Below are positions 30,837 to 50,214 of a DNA stretch of 64,000 nt, piece by piece. Made by a program: the position numbers and the translations under genes. How positions within the stretch are numbered: position 1 is the stretch's first letter; every line of letters begins with the position of its first letter. Location: positions 1-64,000 of the forward strand of contig LADT01000013.1 of assembly GCA_000961765.1 (NCBI GenBank), written 5' to 3'. This DNA comes from Clostridiaceae bacterium BRH_c20a (GTDB lineage Bacteria; Bacillota; Peptococcia; Peptococcales; BICA1-8). The notes beneath the pieces are model-generated. The model was given only the letters and a program-made list of their open reading frames with translations, searched no databases and had not been told where the DNA came from.

Positions 30837-31256
30837 TTATGACTTAGGGATAGACTTTACTTTTCCTAACCGGCGCTGTTTTATTTGATAAATATTTAAG
30901 CACCGAACAAGCTTCATTTGTTCACATTCCTTAAAGTGAATAAACTCTAGTCCATAATTTATTTTTACAGGGCTAAGTATTTTTTTCCATAATGCTTTTC
31001 CATATAACTTTATTGGTTCATTTTCTATCTTAAACTCAATTTGTAAAATTAAGTCAATATCACTAGGTAAGTCTAAAGCAGTTTCCATTTTCATTCCAGT
31101 ACTACTCAAGTCTAAAATTAACAAAGATATTGTTTTATCTAAATCCACCACTTGGCCATTAATAAATTTAAAATGAGCATCGGCACTAATCGCATAAGTA
31201 AAATATACTCGAAAGTTATTTCTCCGATCAGTTGATGTACTCATATTTTTCAACAA
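30837..31256 (-). CDS. PilZ-domain protein, copy B
   Basis: A 139-residue single PilZ domain. The c-di-GMP-binding RxxxR is RNNFR (about residue 12) and the DxSxxG motif is DLSSTG (about 50). TTG start (31256) follows AAGAGGTGAG. The protein is 75 percent or so similar to the neighbouring PilZ gene by eye, so this is a tandem duplication. It has no membrane span or partner domain, so it should work as a diffusible c-di-GMP receptor. It lies beside an exopolysaccharide operon. Confidence 0.88.
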   Translation of the reverse strand: MLKNMSTSTDRRNNFRVYFTYAISADAHFKFINGQVVDLDKTISLLILDLSSTGMKMETALDLPSDIDLILQIEFKIENEPIKLYGKALWKKILSPVKINYGLEFIHFKECEQMKLVRCLNIYQIKQRRLGKVKSIPKS

Positions 31257-31429: not shown

Positions 31430-31834
31430 TTAGTTACCTGAGCCCGATATTTTCTGCTGTTTTATTTGATGGATATTTAAGCACCGTACAAGCTTCTTTT
31501 GTTCACCTTCCTTTAGGCAAATAAACTCTACTCCATAATTAATTTTTACAGGGTTAAGTATTTCTTTCCATAATGTTTTTCCATATAATTTAATAACTTC
31601 ATTTTCCATAATAAATTCAATTTGTAAAATTAAGTCAATACCACTGGGTAGGTCTAAGGCTGTTTCCATTTTCATTCCAGTACTACTTAAGTCTAATATT
31701 AATAAGGGTATAATTTTATTTAAATCTACCATCCTACCACTAATAAATCTTATATGAGCCTTGGCATTAATACCATTATTAAAATATACTCTAAAGTTCT
31801 TTCTTCTTTCAGCTAATTTGCTCATACTTTTCAA
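31430..31834 (-). CDS. PilZ-domain protein, copy A
   Basis: A 134-residue PilZ protein with RKNFR and DLSSTGMKME, as in copy B, so both c-di-GMP-binding motifs are intact. The TTG start has GAGGAGTGAGG upstream. Both copies share long stretches (RVYF, SSTGMKMETALDLP, VKINYG.EFI). Upstream sequences are also similar (CAACTAACA...AATTTGTTG), so promoter and gene were duplicated together. Transcription is likely independent of the polysaccharide operon, which ends at a terminator upstream. Confidence 0.88.
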   Translation of the reverse strand: MKSMSKLAERRKNFRVYFNNGINAKAHIRFISGRMVDLNKIIPLLILDLSSTGMKMETALDLPSGIDLILQIEFIMENEVIKLYGKTLWKEILNPVKINYGVEFICLKEGEQKKLVRCLNIHQIKQQKISGSGN

Positions 31835-44217: not shown

Positions 44218-44254
44218 AAAAACACCCTGCATTTTAAATGCAGGGTTAAGTACA
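44218..44254. terminator. Hairpin upstream of the three-span gene
   Basis: CCCTGCATTT pairs with AAATGCAGGG, flanked by A/T runs. The 44117-44580 gap also has the GACTAGTGACTGGTGACTAG repeat at 44322-44347, the hairpin element at 44441-44523 and a REP at 44577-44602, and no gene. Confidence 0.75.
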
Positions 44255-44576: not shown

Positions 44577-44602
44577 ATTTTCACAATGTAAAACCTGACC
44601 CC
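44577..44602. repeat. REP element at the 3' end of the DUF5305 gene
   Basis: TCACAATGTAAAACCTGACC, one base different from the consensus. Provides the last six codons and stop of the gene at 44581. Confidence 0.92.
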
Positions 44603-45732
44603 ATTGTCTCTGGCTCAGATGTGCTTTGCTGAAGAAATGCCAAACGGTAAGTGAAAATCCTGGGCTCATTGAGTACATAGAATACCTGTTCCTCATCGTG
44701 CTCTAGATTGCCTCGATACATAATGGGTTTTCCTAATTCGTCGGCAACTTTGACTATATCCTCAAAGGTCTTAACATTCAGTAAAGAGTCGCTGTTGATA
44801 GATAATTCATTTTCCAAAGCGACCAACCGCTCACCATGATCTTTGTGTATCTTTTTCCACTGTTTTTTAACAGGGTTGACGATAGTGTTTTCTGTTTTAA
44901 AGATAATTAAAATAATTCCTATTATAAATATAAATGCCAGCACACCATAAACTGTTAATTTAGTCTCATCCACAGGCAGGGTTGTTATCACAGTATTTTC
45001 AATTACGCCTTCCTTAGATTTACTGAGGTCCTCGGTTATTTGGAAATATTTAGTATTCAAAGGTATTGTTATACTAGGAGTAAGCTGCTCCTGGATCATA
45101 CCATTTTCTGTCTGAGCATTAATTCGAACATCCCAATTGAGACTTAAAATTACTTCTGTTTGAATTTCGTGGTCTTTAAAAAACTTTGCGACAAAATCAT
45201 TATATATCTTAAGATCAAGAGGAAGTTCTTTACTAAGCGCAATCTCTTTATCCTTTGCCTCAAAGGTTTCTTTGGCTGACAGTATGTAAGGTTTATTCCA
45301 AATTATAAATATCTTGTCAAGCTCTCTCCTAATTCCTTGCATGTAAGCTGTAACTTCATACTCGCCTGTTATGTCGGCAACTTTATCACCTAGAAACTGG
45401 TATTTAAAAGACGTATTAATATTCTTCACAAAAGGAGTAAGATAATATTGCCCCTTACCCAGGCTCTCTTCGGAAGTGATAGGGTTAGGGTGCAGGTTAA
45501 CCCTGTAATCTACTTCACCCTTATGCTTATAGGAATATATTTGAACCTTTTCCTCAACTGTACCGGGGCTTGTCCAAGCCTGGTACAGTAAAACAAACAC
45601 GAATACAGTAAACAAGCCCAGGACAGTTATCAGACTGATCCGAAGCATTTTTGCCATTCTCAGCTTAACCTTTATAAATATTATACTTTTCACCTTGAGA
45701 TTATTGAACTCCACGATGTCAACCCCCAACAT
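44581..45732 (-). CDS. DUF5305-type membrane-anchored protein
   Basis: A 383-residue protein with an N-terminal span (ISLITVLGLFTVFVFVLLYQAW), an extracellular domain (about 55-260) beginning with SYKHKGEVDYRVNLHPNPIT and FVKNINTSFKYQF, a second span (LTVYGVLAFIFIIGIILIIF, about 265-285) and a cytoplasmic tail. This is the DUF5305 layout, a family seen beside SipW-type signal peptidases. The start is uncertain: a GTG 18 bases downstream also has GGGGGT before it. The last residues GSGFTL come from a REP element. Last gene of the leftward surface operon. Confidence 0.85.
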   Translation of the reverse strand: MLGVDIVEFNNLKVKSIIFIKVKLRMAKMLRISLITVLGLFTVFVFVLLYQAWTSPGTVEEKVQIYSYKHKGEVDYRVNLHPNPITSEESLGKGQYYLTPFVKNINTSFKYQFLGDKVADITGEYEVTAYMQGIRRELDKIFIIWNKPYILSAKETFEAKDKEIALSKELPLDLKIYNDFVAKFFKDHEIQTEVILSLNWDVRINAQTENGMIQEQLTPSITIPLNTKYFQITEDLSKSKEGVIENTVITTLPVDETKLTVYGVLAFIFIIGIILIIFKTENTIVNPVKKQWKKIHKDHGERLVALENELSINSDSLLNVKTFEDIVKVADELGKPIMYRGNLEHDEEQVFYVLNEPRIFTYRLAFLQQSTSEPETMGSGFTL

Positions 45733-45737
45733 TTTTT

Positions 45738-46961
45738 TTATATCTCTACATTATCTGTATTCGGATCTCCTTCACTTCGTAGGTAAAGAGTAGGCCAGCC
45801 GATTTTAGGAATAACCTGAATGACCTTTCCTTTAATCTGCTGGGGCTCTACCAGCTTGGAATCAGCGGAAGAGTTATTGTCTCCTTGAGTTTGGAATAAC
45901 TGCCCTTTCCCTTTTTCCGTCTTAACATCAACTACACGGTGAACAATATATATCTTATTTTCAAGATGTCGAAAATGAATAATATCGCCCAGTTTGGCCT
46001 CCTGCCCCTTTATCTTCTTAGCCAGTACGACATCACCGGGTTTTATTAATGGCTCCATGCTTCCCGTAGCGATAACTTGAGGATAAATAGGAAATAAGCC
46101 TACTGCGAACCAGACTATTACTACAGCTGCTACACTTGTTAAAATCCATCCCAAAGTACTTTCTTTGTCCCGGCTATGTCTTTTCACTTCCCTAGATTCA
46201 TAGAGGTACAGATTCTGGACAATAATCAAACTGATAAAGGGAACAAATGTACCTAAAAATGTTTTGCTCATCCATCCCAGATTGGGCAGGATAGGGCAAA
46301 ACCACTGATAAGCCTGCAGAGTTCCCTTGTAAATAAGGGCAGTTACCGGTCCTCCCAGGTAAGCAAAATATGAAGTAAGGAGGTTTTCCGAAAACAGGGG
46401 GAATATGTTTTGGCCTGCCAATTTTGCCACCTCAGAAAGAGATTTAAATTGAAGAAGCTGTGCTGTCGTTATATTAATGAAAGTAAAAAAGAGACTTACT
46501 ATACTGATTATTAAGAAAGGTCGTTTTGCACTTAGGTTGTTTATTAGGTATGCCCTCGCTAATTCTTGCCCTCCCAGAGTAGAACCTACCAAAATGACAT
46601 TCATAATAATTGCAAAAGGAGTAAAGGAATATGGACTTTTACCAAAACCGTCCAAAAAACCACCCATAATCATGAGCAGAATATAAGAAACTGCACAGAC
46701 AAAAGCCAAAGAATTTAGGTAGCTTTTAAATCTCAGCTTCCCTACGGGCTTCACCTTTGCAAAGTATAAAACAATTAAAGCCAGACAGACCCAAAGAGCT
46801 GGCTTTAAGACATAACTAAAAAGAAAAGTACTTTCTACTATTTTTTTTAAAAAAGGTAGTCCATCAATTAGATAGATGGCGCTTAAAAGCACCACCAGCA
46901 GAAAGCATTTATAATGATTTTTCCTGGATAATATATGCTTAGCTATTACGGCCACCCCCAA
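45738..46961 (-). CDS. Signal peptidase I of SipW (ER/archaeal) type with extra membrane domain
   Basis: A 407-residue protein. The C-terminal third is a type I signal peptidase of the SipW/SEC11 class: ATGSMEPLIKPGDVVLAKK has the catalytic Ser, IVHRVVDV the catalytic His used by SipW-type enzymes in place of Lys, and TQGDNNSSADS the conserved G-D-N-N. The first about 265 residues form some eight membrane spans not found in short SipW proteins. One motif, GGQELARAYLINNL, vaguely recalls CPBP intramembrane protease motif 1. It should process the two or three TasA-like precursors encoded upstream. Start uncertain (TTG 46961). Confidence 0.9.
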   Translation of the reverse strand: MGVAVIAKHILSRKNHYKCFLLVVLLSAIYLIDGLPFLKKIVESTFLFSYVLKPALWVCLALIVLYFAKVKPVGKLRFKSYLNSLAFVCAVSYILLMIMGGFLDGFGKSPYSFTPFAIIMNVILVGSTLGGQELARAYLINNLSAKRPFLIISIVSLFFTFINITTAQLLQFKSLSEVAKLAGQNIFPLFSENLLTSYFAYLGGPVTALIYKGTLQAYQWFCPILPNLGWMSKTFLGTFVPFISLIIVQNLYLYESREVKRHSRDKESTLGWILTSVAAVVIVWFAVGLFPIYPQVIATGSMEPLIKPGDVVLAKKIKGQEAKLGDIIHFRHLENKIYIVHRVVDVKTEKGKGQLFQTQGDNNSSADSKLVEPQQIKGKVIQVIPKIGWPTLYLRSEGDPNTDNVEI

Positions 46962-46980: not shown

Positions 46981-47106
46981 CTATGGTGCAACAGTTGTAA
47001 TAGAGCCATTAACCGTAACATTCTGAGTCCAAGCAGCATACACCCCTGAAAAAGCTGTTAGAGTAAGGACCAATCCAAGTAAAATTATAATAACCTTCTT
47101 TTTCAT
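46981..47106 (-). CDS. 41-aa secreted mini-protein with SipW-type signal
   Basis: An ATG at 47106 with AAGGAGGTAACTATT upstream (a near-perfect ribosome binding site) opens a 41-residue frame: MKKKVIIILLGLVLTLTAFS then GVYAAWTQNVTVNGSITTVAP. The signal and the W-T-x-x-V-T-V-N-G-S motif equal the start of the two larger SipW-dependent proteins in this operon, but the protein ends just after it. Cleavage would release a peptide of about 15-20 residues. It lies between the 235-aa protein and the signal peptidase. Either a functional peptide or a gene broken at the 3' end. Confidence 0.7.
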   Translation of the reverse strand: MKKKVIIILLGLVLTLTAFSGVYAAWTQNVTVNGSITTVAP

Positions 47107-47134: not shown

Positions 47135-47171
47135 ATTAAGCAGGGTTTGTTTACAGCAAACCCTGCTTAAT
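47135..47171 (-). terminator. Intercistronic stem-loop after the 235-aa surface protein
   Basis: A perfect 15-bp stem, ATTAAGCAGGGTTTG with CAAACCCTGCTTAAT, loop TTTACAG. As in tctC-tctA, it separates an abundant secreted product from the genes for the processing machinery and could set their ratio. Confidence 0.7.
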
Positions 47172-47183
47172 ATTTAAATTCAA

Positions 47184-47891
47184 TTAGTTCTTAATCCACT
47201 GTTCGAAGTCAAAGTTCATAGTAATAACAAGTTCGGTTTCTTCAAACTGTTCTGCAGTTACTTCAGGAGCTAAGCCATTTACCTGATTTGCAAATTCGAA
47301 GGGAATTTCGATAAACATCCCTTGACCTGCGGCATTTCCTGCAGCATAGTTAACAGGGGCAAGAACAACAGCCTTCAAGCCAGCATCAGCCGATAGTGTC
47401 CCAGGCAGGCTATTGACAGGAATCCACTCAGTACCAGCACCGCCATTAATTTCAGTAAAGACTGCAACACCGTCATTCTTTTTATATCTAAATTTAGTTA
47501 CAAAAAAGTCGTTAAAATCAGAACCAGCACCATCCGCTGGGACTAAAGTAAAAGTAGCATCTTGGAATCTAGAAGGAACTGTACCATAGTTTTCCATGTA
47601 GAGTTTTATCGTCCCTGTAGCTCCCGGGAATAAGTTGCTGATAGTTACAGCTAACTCATCGGGATTAGCACCTACTTCTGCAACTGCAGTAGTTTGAGCT
47701 ACGTCAGCACCAAGATACTCATCGCTTGCCTCAAAATCCACAGAGCAGTCAGCTACCTTCCACTGAACATCAAATTCTCCCGTTTTTACTGTGGAAGTCA
47801 ACGTGATGGTGTCCTGCCAGTAGGCGTAGCCTACACCCATTATCATTAGTGCCATTACCATTGTGATTGCTAAAAACTTTACTCTTTTCAT
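47184..47891 (-). CDS. SipW-dependent secreted protein, TasA/camelysin-like
   Basis: A 235-residue secreted protein. The start MKRVKFLAITMVMALMIMGVGYAYWQDTITLTSTVKTGEFDVQW is the SipW-dependent signal signature (Y-x-Y-W-x-D ... T-V-K-T-G). The mature part is beta-rich, with the ISNLFPGATGTIKLYMENYGTVP block of TasA/CalY-type fibre proteins. It is expected to be cleaved by the co-encoded signal peptidase and exported to the surface, perhaps to form fibres. The ATG follows AAAGGAGAAAGAAGA. It is followed by an intercistronic hairpin. Confidence 0.88.
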   Translation of the reverse strand: MKRVKFLAITMVMALMIMGVGYAYWQDTITLTSTVKTGEFDVQWKVADCSVDFEASDEYLGADVAQTTAVAEVGANPDELAVTISNLFPGATGTIKLYMENYGTVPSRFQDATFTLVPADGAGSDFNDFFVTKFRYKKNDGVAVFTEINGGAGTEWIPVNSLPGTLSADAGLKAVVLAPVNYAAGNAAGQGMFIEIPFEFANQVNGLAPEVTAEQFEETELVITMNFDFEQWIKN

Positions 47892-47985: not shown

Positions 47986-48468
47986 TTAAATGTTCCATTG
48001 TTCTATTTCAATTTTTGCGGCAAAAGTATATGTGTCACTGTATTTAAAGGTAGCTGCAGCTGGCATTTCAACTATCATGATATAATCATTACTTTCAGTT
48101 AATCCTAATGTCTGCCAGACAACAGGCTCAATGGTTGTTAAAATTCCATCTGCATCTAAAGTTTCAACAGCTCGGACTTTAATCGGGATAAATCCGCTAT
48201 TTTTAACATTGTAAACAACAGTAAAGGTATCTCCTGGTCCAGCAAGAGCAGCAGTAAAATTGATAGTATTTCCAACTACAGTTGCTGGCCCGCTTACGAT
48301 ACTTATATCTGCCTTCAATTCCCCTGTCTTGATTGTAGGTACAAAGCTAATACGGTCACTCCAATCGGAAAAACTTATCCCGAGAATACTTAAGGAGAAA
48401 AGGAGAGTAAGGGAGAGCAGAACTATGAAAATCTTCCTTTGGCTTTTTTTCTTTGCCATTCCTGACAC
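47986..48468 (-). CDS. SipW-dependent secreted protein, shorter paralogue
   Basis: About 160 residues. It has a basic start (AKKKSQRKIFIVLLSLTLLFSLSILGISFSDWSDRISFVPTIKTGELKADI) with the same W-S-D ... T-I-K-T-G signature as the larger protein. The beta-domain GDTFTVVYNVKNSGFIPIKVRAVE resembles the TasA-like fold. The start is uncertain: GTG 48468 has GGAG at 9 bases, and ATG or TTG three or four codons upstream are closer to it. Second gene of the surface operon. Confidence 0.82.
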   Translation of the reverse strand: MSGMAKKKSQRKIFIVLLSLTLLFSLSILGISFSDWSDRISFVPTIKTGELKADISIVSGPATVVGNTINFTAALAGPGDTFTVVYNVKNSGFIPIKVRAVETLDADGILTTIEPVVWQTLGLTESNDYIMIVEMPAAATFKYSDTYTFAAKIEIEQWNI

Positions 48469-48638
48469 GGGCATCAACTCCTTAACCGAGTTATTTCTAA
48501 ATTCTAAAAAAAATTTGTGTTTTTTTACTTATTTTCTATTATTTTACATTCAAGTTTAAAAAGATTATCTAACCCTGAAGCAAGATTAGATTAGAAAAAA
48601 CAAGTTGTTACATAATCTATTAAAATTCCGTCCTATTA

Positions 48639-49802
48639 TTATTCTGCCTGCGTTCTACAGATAATACTGAATGCTTCCGCCCTGGTCATAAAACTCCTAG
48701 GCTTAAAGGTATTATCAGGATAACCTCCCATAAGCTTGTGCTGAATGGCAGCTTTAACATCATCTAATGCCCAGTCAGAAATTTGGTCTCTATCAGTGTA
48801 ACCAAGAGTAATATCCATAGTTAGTTTTTTCTCAAAGGCTCTGACCAAAACACAGGCTAATTCCTCCCTGCTAATGTGATTATTGGGCATAAACCGCCAA
48901 CCTGGATAACCATGAAAAATACCTGCTTCGGAAACGGCAATTATATAACCTTTAACTTCATTGGATATTGACCCAAGATCAATGAAACCGGAGAATAGTT
49001 TGTTTACAGGTTCTAAACCTAGCGCCTTGGCTAATAATACTGCCACCTCGGCTCTAGTGATACTATCTTCGGGTCTGATTTTATTATCCGGCTCCAACTC
49101 AATTGTTTTATTCTTCAGTAATGTTTGTACACATTGATAGGCCCAGTGACTAGGCGGCATATCAGAAATTAGATAACTAGTAGTAATTGATGGCCCTCCA
49201 TCTCCACCTGATGAAGGAGCAGGAATTTCTCCTGTATTAATTAATAGTGAGAGTGTTGAATCTAGACCATGCATATTATCCTCGACAACTACACTACCGT
49301 CCATAGTGACAGTGTATTCAAAGTCGACATAACCCAGCCGGTCAATTTCAATAGACACATCTTTCCCTTTATACAGAGCGCTACCTGTCTGATAAAGAAT
49401 GCCTGTAAATGCACCATCATAAAGGGCCGCGGGGTCATTCACCTTTTTCAAAGTAAACTTCATTTTTTCTGCAAAAGTACCATACATGCCAGCAGCAATA
49501 CGATCTACTTGAAGAGCAATGTTGCTGATCTTTACTTTATAAAAGGCGCTGTTTTGGATACGGACTATACCCGTTTTAGCCAAGCCGGGGAACCAAGCAG
49601 CATTGTCAAAGGATGTTGGCACACCATTTACATCCAGTGTACTTTTCAAGACAAGTGTATCGGAAAAATGCCCCCCACCGTTGATATTAATAGTTTTATC
49701 CGGCCCTGCCGGGGCAGCCAAAGCAATACCGGGAACGCCTAACAGCCCGACTGCAATAAGGAGAATTAAGACCACTGATAATGTCCTTTTCCATTTTTTC
49801 AA
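48639..49802 (-). CDS. SLH-domain surface protein with TasA-like N-terminal region
   Basis: A roughly 387-residue secreted protein with a signal ending near PGIALAAP. Residues 35-195 form a beta domain (FDNAAWFPGLAKTGIVRIQNSAFYKVKISNIALQVD) like the TasA-like proteins downstream. A Gly/Ser linker (IPAPSSGGDGG) precedes three SLH repeats (SHWAYQCVQTLLKNK..., GYIIAVSEAGIFHGYPGWRF..., DWALDDVKAAIQHKLMGGYPDNTF...). The SLH repeats bind pyruvylated cell-wall polymer, so this should anchor the surface layer or fibre. TTG at 49802 is preferred (AGAGGGTGA 8 bases upstream) over GTG at 49814. Behind a possible riboswitch. Confidence 0.9.
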   Translation of the reverse strand: MKKWKRTLSVVLILLIAVGLLGVPGIALAAPAGPDKTININGGGHFSDTLVLKSTLDVNGVPTSFDNAAWFPGLAKTGIVRIQNSAFYKVKISNIALQVDRIAAGMYGTFAEKMKFTLKKVNDPAALYDGAFTGILYQTGSALYKGKDVSIEIDRLGYVDFEYTVTMDGSVVVEDNMHGLDSTLSLLINTGEIPAPSSGGDGGPSITTSYLISDMPPSHWAYQCVQTLLKNKTIELEPDNKIRPEDSITRAEVAVLLAKALGLEPVNKLFSGFIDLGSISNEVKGYIIAVSEAGIFHGYPGWRFMPNNHISREELACVLVRAFEKKLTMDITLGYTDRDQISDWALDDVKAAIQHKLMGGYPDNTFKPRSFMTRAEAFSIICRTQAE

Positions 49803-49841
49803 GATTTTAATCACCCTCTTTATTCAATATTTGGTAAAAAT

Positions 49842-49875
49842 AAAAATGCCCGACCAAAAAATAAATTGGACCGGG
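49842..49875 (-). terminator. Leader terminator of the SLH operon
   Basis: On the minus strand CCCG..CCAA pairs with TTGG..CGGG, then CATTTTTATTTTT. It overlaps the 3' strand of the P1 stem of the upstream element, so the two folds exclude each other. A switch that turns the operon on when P1 forms is the simple reading. Confidence 0.7.
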
Positions 49876-49945
49876 TCGGTTGCACCACTGACTCGGTATG
49901 TTCTAGGCGCCCAGTTACAGAACATACTTCATAGTCCCCCTTGGG
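49868..49945 (-). promoter_or_regulatory. Candidate c-di-GMP-II-like riboswitch before the SLH operon
   Basis: On the minus strand the leader has GGACTATGAAG, then AACTGGGCGCC, then GTGGTGCAACCGACC and CGGTCC. GTGCAACCGACC and TGGGC-C are the most conserved blocks I remember for class II c-di-GMP riboswitches. GGACT/GGUCC can form P1 and GCGCC/GGTGC a second helix. However, an 8-bp hairpin, TATGTTCT/AGAACATA, does not fit the textbook secondary structure. Treat as a strong candidate, not a certain family match. Confidence 0.45.
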
Positions 49946-50214
49946 AAAAATTAATTTCAATTTTTAAAAGCATTGTCCACTTACTTCCTAAGTATAAATC
50001 CCTCATTATGGGAAATATGTAATTTTTTGATGTCGATACCAATATATTTTCCATTATTATTCATTTTAATTCTACATTTTTCCACTTATATAAATAAATT
50101 ATTGTATTAACTTCTTTTAAAAGTAATTAATAACTACTATAAACCTAATTAGTTGTCACAATTTCTATCATTTTTAAAGAAAATCCACGATAATAAGTAT
50201 ATCCTACAGCATAA
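49946..50214. other. Upstream region of the SLH operon, no gene
   Basis: AT-rich, no ORF with a ribosome binding site. It must hold the SLH operon promoter; GTGACAACTAATTAGG followed by TTTATAGT at about 50140-50160 (minus strand) is a possible one, but weak. Confidence 0.4.

Follow-up and report, generated by a model that had tools for sequence, protein, structure and literature searches.

The leader considered here lies on the minus strand of the 64,000-nucleotide stretch that was analysed (the window), between argH (end 50291) and the gene for an SLH-domain surface protein (ORF 49814-48639). Behind the SLH gene come genes for a small protein with a signal-like amino terminus, a TasA/AbpX-like protein, a short exported peptide, a SipW-like signal peptidase, and a DUF5305 protein; an intrinsic terminator closes the unit (Table 1). 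Two codons are candidate starts for the SLH gene: GTG 49814, which overlaps the SD-like sequence AGAGGGTG, and TTG 49802. The better-spaced codon, TTG in the window, is ATT and CTT, respectively, in two other genomes of the same taxonomic class, G045 (locus L053) and G034 (L051).

No Pfam or NCBIfam model matches the product of 47184..47891 above cut-off. A fold search ranks the TasA fibre 8aur first among PDB entries (E 1.8e-5), with a low TM score of 0.35; the AlphaFold model has a pLDDT of 74. The mature amino-terminal part is related to the archaeal bundling protein AbpX (PDB 9sj2, 9rhp), including the motif WxxTLxxxxTxxTG; about 95 residues align, and the rest of the product is divergent. 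The protein is putatively fibre-forming. The hairpin directly 3′ of its gene is kept in three genera (the window, L051, and L053), and is perhaps an mRNA-stabilizing or processing element that would raise the level of subunit over that of the peptidase. The SipW-like peptidase scores 84 bits with TIGR02228 (cut-off 51.85) and 57.1 with the Bacillus SipW equivalog model, under the cut-off of 190. The GSMEP and HR motifs of its Ser and His boxes are invariant in four homologues.

Table 1. Leader elements and downstream genes in the window, in order along the minus strand
Feature	Position	Strand	Evidence or remark
c-di-GMP-II riboswitch aptamer, full length	49865..49948	-	cmscan 68.7 bits, GA 53.5
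Long internal stem-loop GTATGTTC...GAACATAC	49896..49927	-	model columns 22-29/46-53
Pseudoknot 5′ strand GCGC, partner GTGC 49885-49882	49907..49910	-	pairing in 17 aligned sequences
GTGCAACCG core: pseudoknot 3′ strand and near-invariant junction	49877..49885	-	columns G64, G66, A68-G72
P1 3′ strand core CCC; bound form, pairs with GGG 49940-49938; free form, terminator base	49873..49875	-	
Intrinsic terminator: stem 49875-49849, CA, then UUUUUAUUUUU	49836..49875	-	-11.2 kcal/mol
SLH-domain surface protein, operon gene 1	48639..49814	-	PF00395, three stretches
Small protein, signal-like N-terminus, distant relative of next gene	47986..48477	-	BLASTP to 47184-47891, E 2e-7
TasA/AbpX-like protein with signal peptide	47184..47891	-	AbpX profile, E 7.5e-16
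Strong hairpin after TasA-like gene, without U-tract on minus strand	47135..47171	-	also in G034, G045
41-aa exported peptide, SipW-type signal	46981..47106	-	TIGR04088 17.7 bits, just below cut-off 19
SipW-like (ER/archaeal-type) signal peptidase, long membrane N-terminus	45738..46961	-	PF10502, TIGR02228
DUF5305 protein, last gene of unit	44581..45732	-	PF17231 124.9 bits
Intrinsic terminator closing operon before exopolysaccharide genes	44224..44246	-	10-bp stem, then GTTTTTTT

The original prediction had invoked two PilZ genes and an exopolysaccharide operon nearby. Both PilZ genes (30837-31256 and 31430-31834) are real and adjoin the exopolysaccharide genes. The latter, however, are neighbours of the riboswitch unit rather than members: the intrinsic terminator at 44246-44224 intervenes, and their inclusion was rejected as unproven. 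Nor was any exopolysaccharide gene recognized, by eye in the ORF lists, behind the DUF5305 gene in G034 or G045.

Aptamer identity was computed by covariance search. The leader matches the c-di-GMP-II family (RF01786) at 49948-49865 of the minus strand, scoring 68.7 bits by cmscan against a gathering score of 53.5; the scan that the original prediction had proposed thus came out above the curated threshold. The alignment covers the whole model (1-84 of 84), E is 2.6e-13 for the 64-kb window searched against all 4227 Rfam families, and no other family matches the window at curated thresholds. Every motif cited earlier was found, all on the minus strand: ATGAAG at 49932-49927, TGGGCGCC at 49913-49906, and GTGCAACCGACC at 49885-49874. 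Of the span first proposed (49842-49945), the upper end falls three bases inside the aptamer and the lower end inside the terminator tail. The genome contains one class II and 13 class I c-di-GMP aptamers, along with 20 GGDEF matches.

Aligned to the family consensus, the leader has the conserved core elements AUGAAG, UGGGC, and GUGCAACCG, and it retains the columns that are invariant or nearly so (G64, G66, A68-G72). The pseudoknot, GCGC/GUGC with one G-U pair, links the apical loop (GGGCNC) to the 3′ junction GUGC. An 8-bp hairpin (TATGTTCT/AGAACATA) had been taken as foreign to the known fold. That view was wrong: alignment to RF01786 places it at model columns 22-29/46-53, the family's long internal stem. 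The leader is therefore no variant, and a new riboswitch class on account of this hairpin is ruled out. P1 is short and bulged in comparison with the family. In the model register it has three standard pairs adjoining the core (GGG 49940-49938/CCC 49875-49873); most outer pairs are nonstandard in the strict register, and further pairs need bulges. Shared with the family are the full-length match, the pseudoknot, the core, and a terminator built on the 3′ strand of P1. On the computational tests applied, the leader RNA is soundly predicted to be a canonical member of the known c-di-GMP-II class.

Related aptamers provide a further view of this structure. A search with RF01786 found matches in 12 of 46 genomes of the same taxonomic class, and 17 aptamers of the class were aligned with the structure written out. 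Standard pairs fill 92.1% of the pair cells, compared with 66.6% for shuffled sequences, no shuffle reaching the real value; controls in which the structure was slid along the alignment were just 27-43% paired. Both sides change at 16 of the 18 pairs. The long internal stem has compensatory change at all of its eight pairs; the pseudoknot pairs in 100% of the sequences, with both-side change at three of four pairs; and the three core P1 pairs are formed in 92%. The conserved pairing that the original prediction asked of related leaders is thus present, complete with compensatory changes. These sequences were collected with the family model, which favors its own structure, but the contrast between real and control pairing appears, in our judgement, to exceed what such collection alone could give. 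In one genome (G038, contig C18, locus L056), a pair of c-di-GMP-II matches share a strand at a spacing of about 200 bases (18477 and 18686), a possible tandem arrangement; the second scores under the gathering score.

The terminator hairpin, CCCGGTCCAATTTATTTTTTGGTCGGG (49875-49849), opens with the P1 3′ strand, and is followed by CA and a U-rich tail that extends to 49836. Its folding energy weakens from -11.2 kcal/mol to -2.7 without the three C-G pairs used by P1. The overlap between the terminator and P1, and hence the mutual exclusion of the two folds, had been noticed earlier and is borne out: the same bases (CCC) serve in both. In 17 of 18 c-di-GMP-II leaders of the taxonomic class, likewise, a terminator-like hairpin (at most -7 kcal/mol, with a U-tract) begins in the aptamer 3′ end; about 2.2 would be expected from shuffled downstream flanks. 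For the window leader by itself, a hairpin at least as good arose from two of 30 shuffled flanks, so the case for its terminator leans partly on conservation in the relatives. The two bases, CA, that separate the stem from the U-tract count against a terminator.

These features suggest a model for control of the operon. At low c-di-GMP, the CCCGG segment would pair downstream to form the terminator, and transcription would end ahead of the SLH gene. Binding of c-di-GMP to the pseudoknotted core would hold P1 (GGG/CCC) together; the terminator, deprived of its three basal C-G pairs, would then allow polymerase to read through. Since P1 and the complete terminator exclude each other, the ligand should act as an ON signal. 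On paper, the short P1 with its three clean G-C pairs is a weak competitor unless ligand and pseudoknot contribute energy. Taken together, it is very probable that a c-di-GMP-II riboswitch governs, by transcription antitermination, an operon for an SLH protein, TasA-like exported proteins, and their own signal peptidase. High levels of c-di-GMP, a "settle down" signal, probably activate, through this riboswitch, the genes for a surface-anchored protein and for TasA-like fibre proteins.

Could the same aptamer be an OFF switch, in which ligand favors the terminator, or could the true control be exerted at translation start? The ON direction is a prediction, and class I switches in Clostridium difficile are OFF (PMC6200980). 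However, the P1 3′ strand is the terminator 5′ strand, making the two mutually exclusive; all four C. difficile class II switches act as ON switches, with targets that include adhesins and pili (PMC6200980, PMC6366702); and the SD-like sequence (around 49818) sits past the terminator. This reading is improbable. Somewhat less probable still is a degenerate or ligand-changed relative that has kept the fold and lost c-di-GMP sensing. The weak P1 would fit such a relative, a covariance score alone does not give ligand specificity, and just 11 of 16 c-di-GMP switches in C. difficile are functional (PMC6366702); yet the near-invariant columns are retained, as is the pseudoknot with its G-U pair, and the association with the operon across genera speaks for selection.

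At the far end, a chance hairpin and terminator with no riboswitch at all would accord with the leader's MFE z-score of 0.03. Plain MFE folding alone is uninformative here, which is unsurprising given that the aptamer is pseudoknotted and in competition with a terminator. With an Rfam E-value of 2.6e-13 and covariation besides, the chance reading has a negligible probability, already refuted by the Rfam match. The antitermination model remains the preferred one.

The leader precedes an SLH/SipW operon, in agreement with the original assignment, and the arrangement of switch and operon recurs beyond the window. The five longer genes occur in the same order behind a class II switch in G034 (L051) and G045 (L053), two genera of two other families of the taxonomic class. 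In these genomes, the SLH orthologs are 57% and 45% identical to the window protein, and those of the small protein (47986..48477) 40% and 28%; identities are 55-56% for SipW and 37-51% for DUF5305. G002 (L045), from the window's own family, is a partial match: a kinase and regulator stand between the switch and the TasA-like genes, which SipW follows. In the taxonomic class, the SipW homologues preceded by a same-strand class II switch number four, and these have the four highest scores (more than 660 bits); no class II match occurs in the seven remaining genomes of that class with a SipW homologue.

The broader proposal that SipW operons generally are under c-di-GMP switches was rejected: 20 more distant SipW neighbourhoods, several of them short stretches, yielded one class I match and no class II match. 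Sixteen SipW loci gave only a single weak class I match (L037), which an ORF on the opposite strand separates from sipW. The class I match among the 20 neighbourhoods is in G142 (L092; 8630-8544, minus strand, 82.8 bits); the SipW homologue (962-2047), likewise on the minus strand, lies roughly 6-7 kb downstream of it. The intervening ORFs share that strand, and several look TasA-like by eye. This is possibly a swap of riboswitch class before a related operon. Four genera have a class II switch before the operon, and G142, another genome from the phylum, has the class I switch just described. From this comes the proposition that c-di-GMP turns on a TasA-like matrix directly through RNA in this taxonomic class, and that such control arose on more than one occasion. 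We consider that proposition evenly balanced.

Comparison with characterized systems places the operon in context. The C. difficile switches upstream of pilA1 (Cdi-2-4) and of the adhesin genes CD630_28310 and CD630_32460 likewise have class II aptamers and turn surface structures on (PMC6366702, PMC6200980). Their targets are type IV pili and sortase-dependent surface proteins, whereas the window operon specifies SLH anchoring and TasA-like proteins. Two other operons, tapA-sipW-tasA of Bacillus subtilis and sipW-bsaABCRSD of Clostridium perfringens, also combine a SipW-type peptidase with dedicated, fibre-forming exported proteins. The window operon differs from both in having a riboswitch, an SLH protein first, and DUF5305 last.

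The two operons also differ from it in regulation: the B. subtilis operon is reported to be under SinR (PMC9674648), and the C. perfringens operon to need the BsaRS two-component system (PMC7395162). In contrast, a matrix-type operon with an SLH protein would here respond to c-di-GMP directly, through its mRNA leader. This wiring matters a little, and the leader could serve as a simple and testable reporter for the output of c-di-GMP.

The open-licence literature yielded no paper that connects c-di-GMP-II with an S-layer. Similarly, a link between a c-di-GMP riboswitch and SipW, TasA, or camelysin is not described in the titles and opening abstract lines of open-licence papers or in passages of PMC7395162. 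As a riboswitch, the leader is unremarkable; of modest novelty is the conserved association of c-di-GMP-II with a TasA/SipW-type operon, undescribed in the open-licence papers searched.

The 13 class I switches in the genome of the window (G000) include some before pilus-like and chemotaxis-like genes. Contig C65 (L072) has two, at 1515-1599 and 8464-8551 in contig coordinates; judged by eye from ORF sequences, the second precedes PilT/PilC-like genes. By the same means, the class I switch on contig C71 (L071) precedes a chemotaxis-like operon. Finally, two class I leaders (L064 and L065) are very similar in aptamer, flank, and small downstream ORF, and probably reflect a recent duplication.
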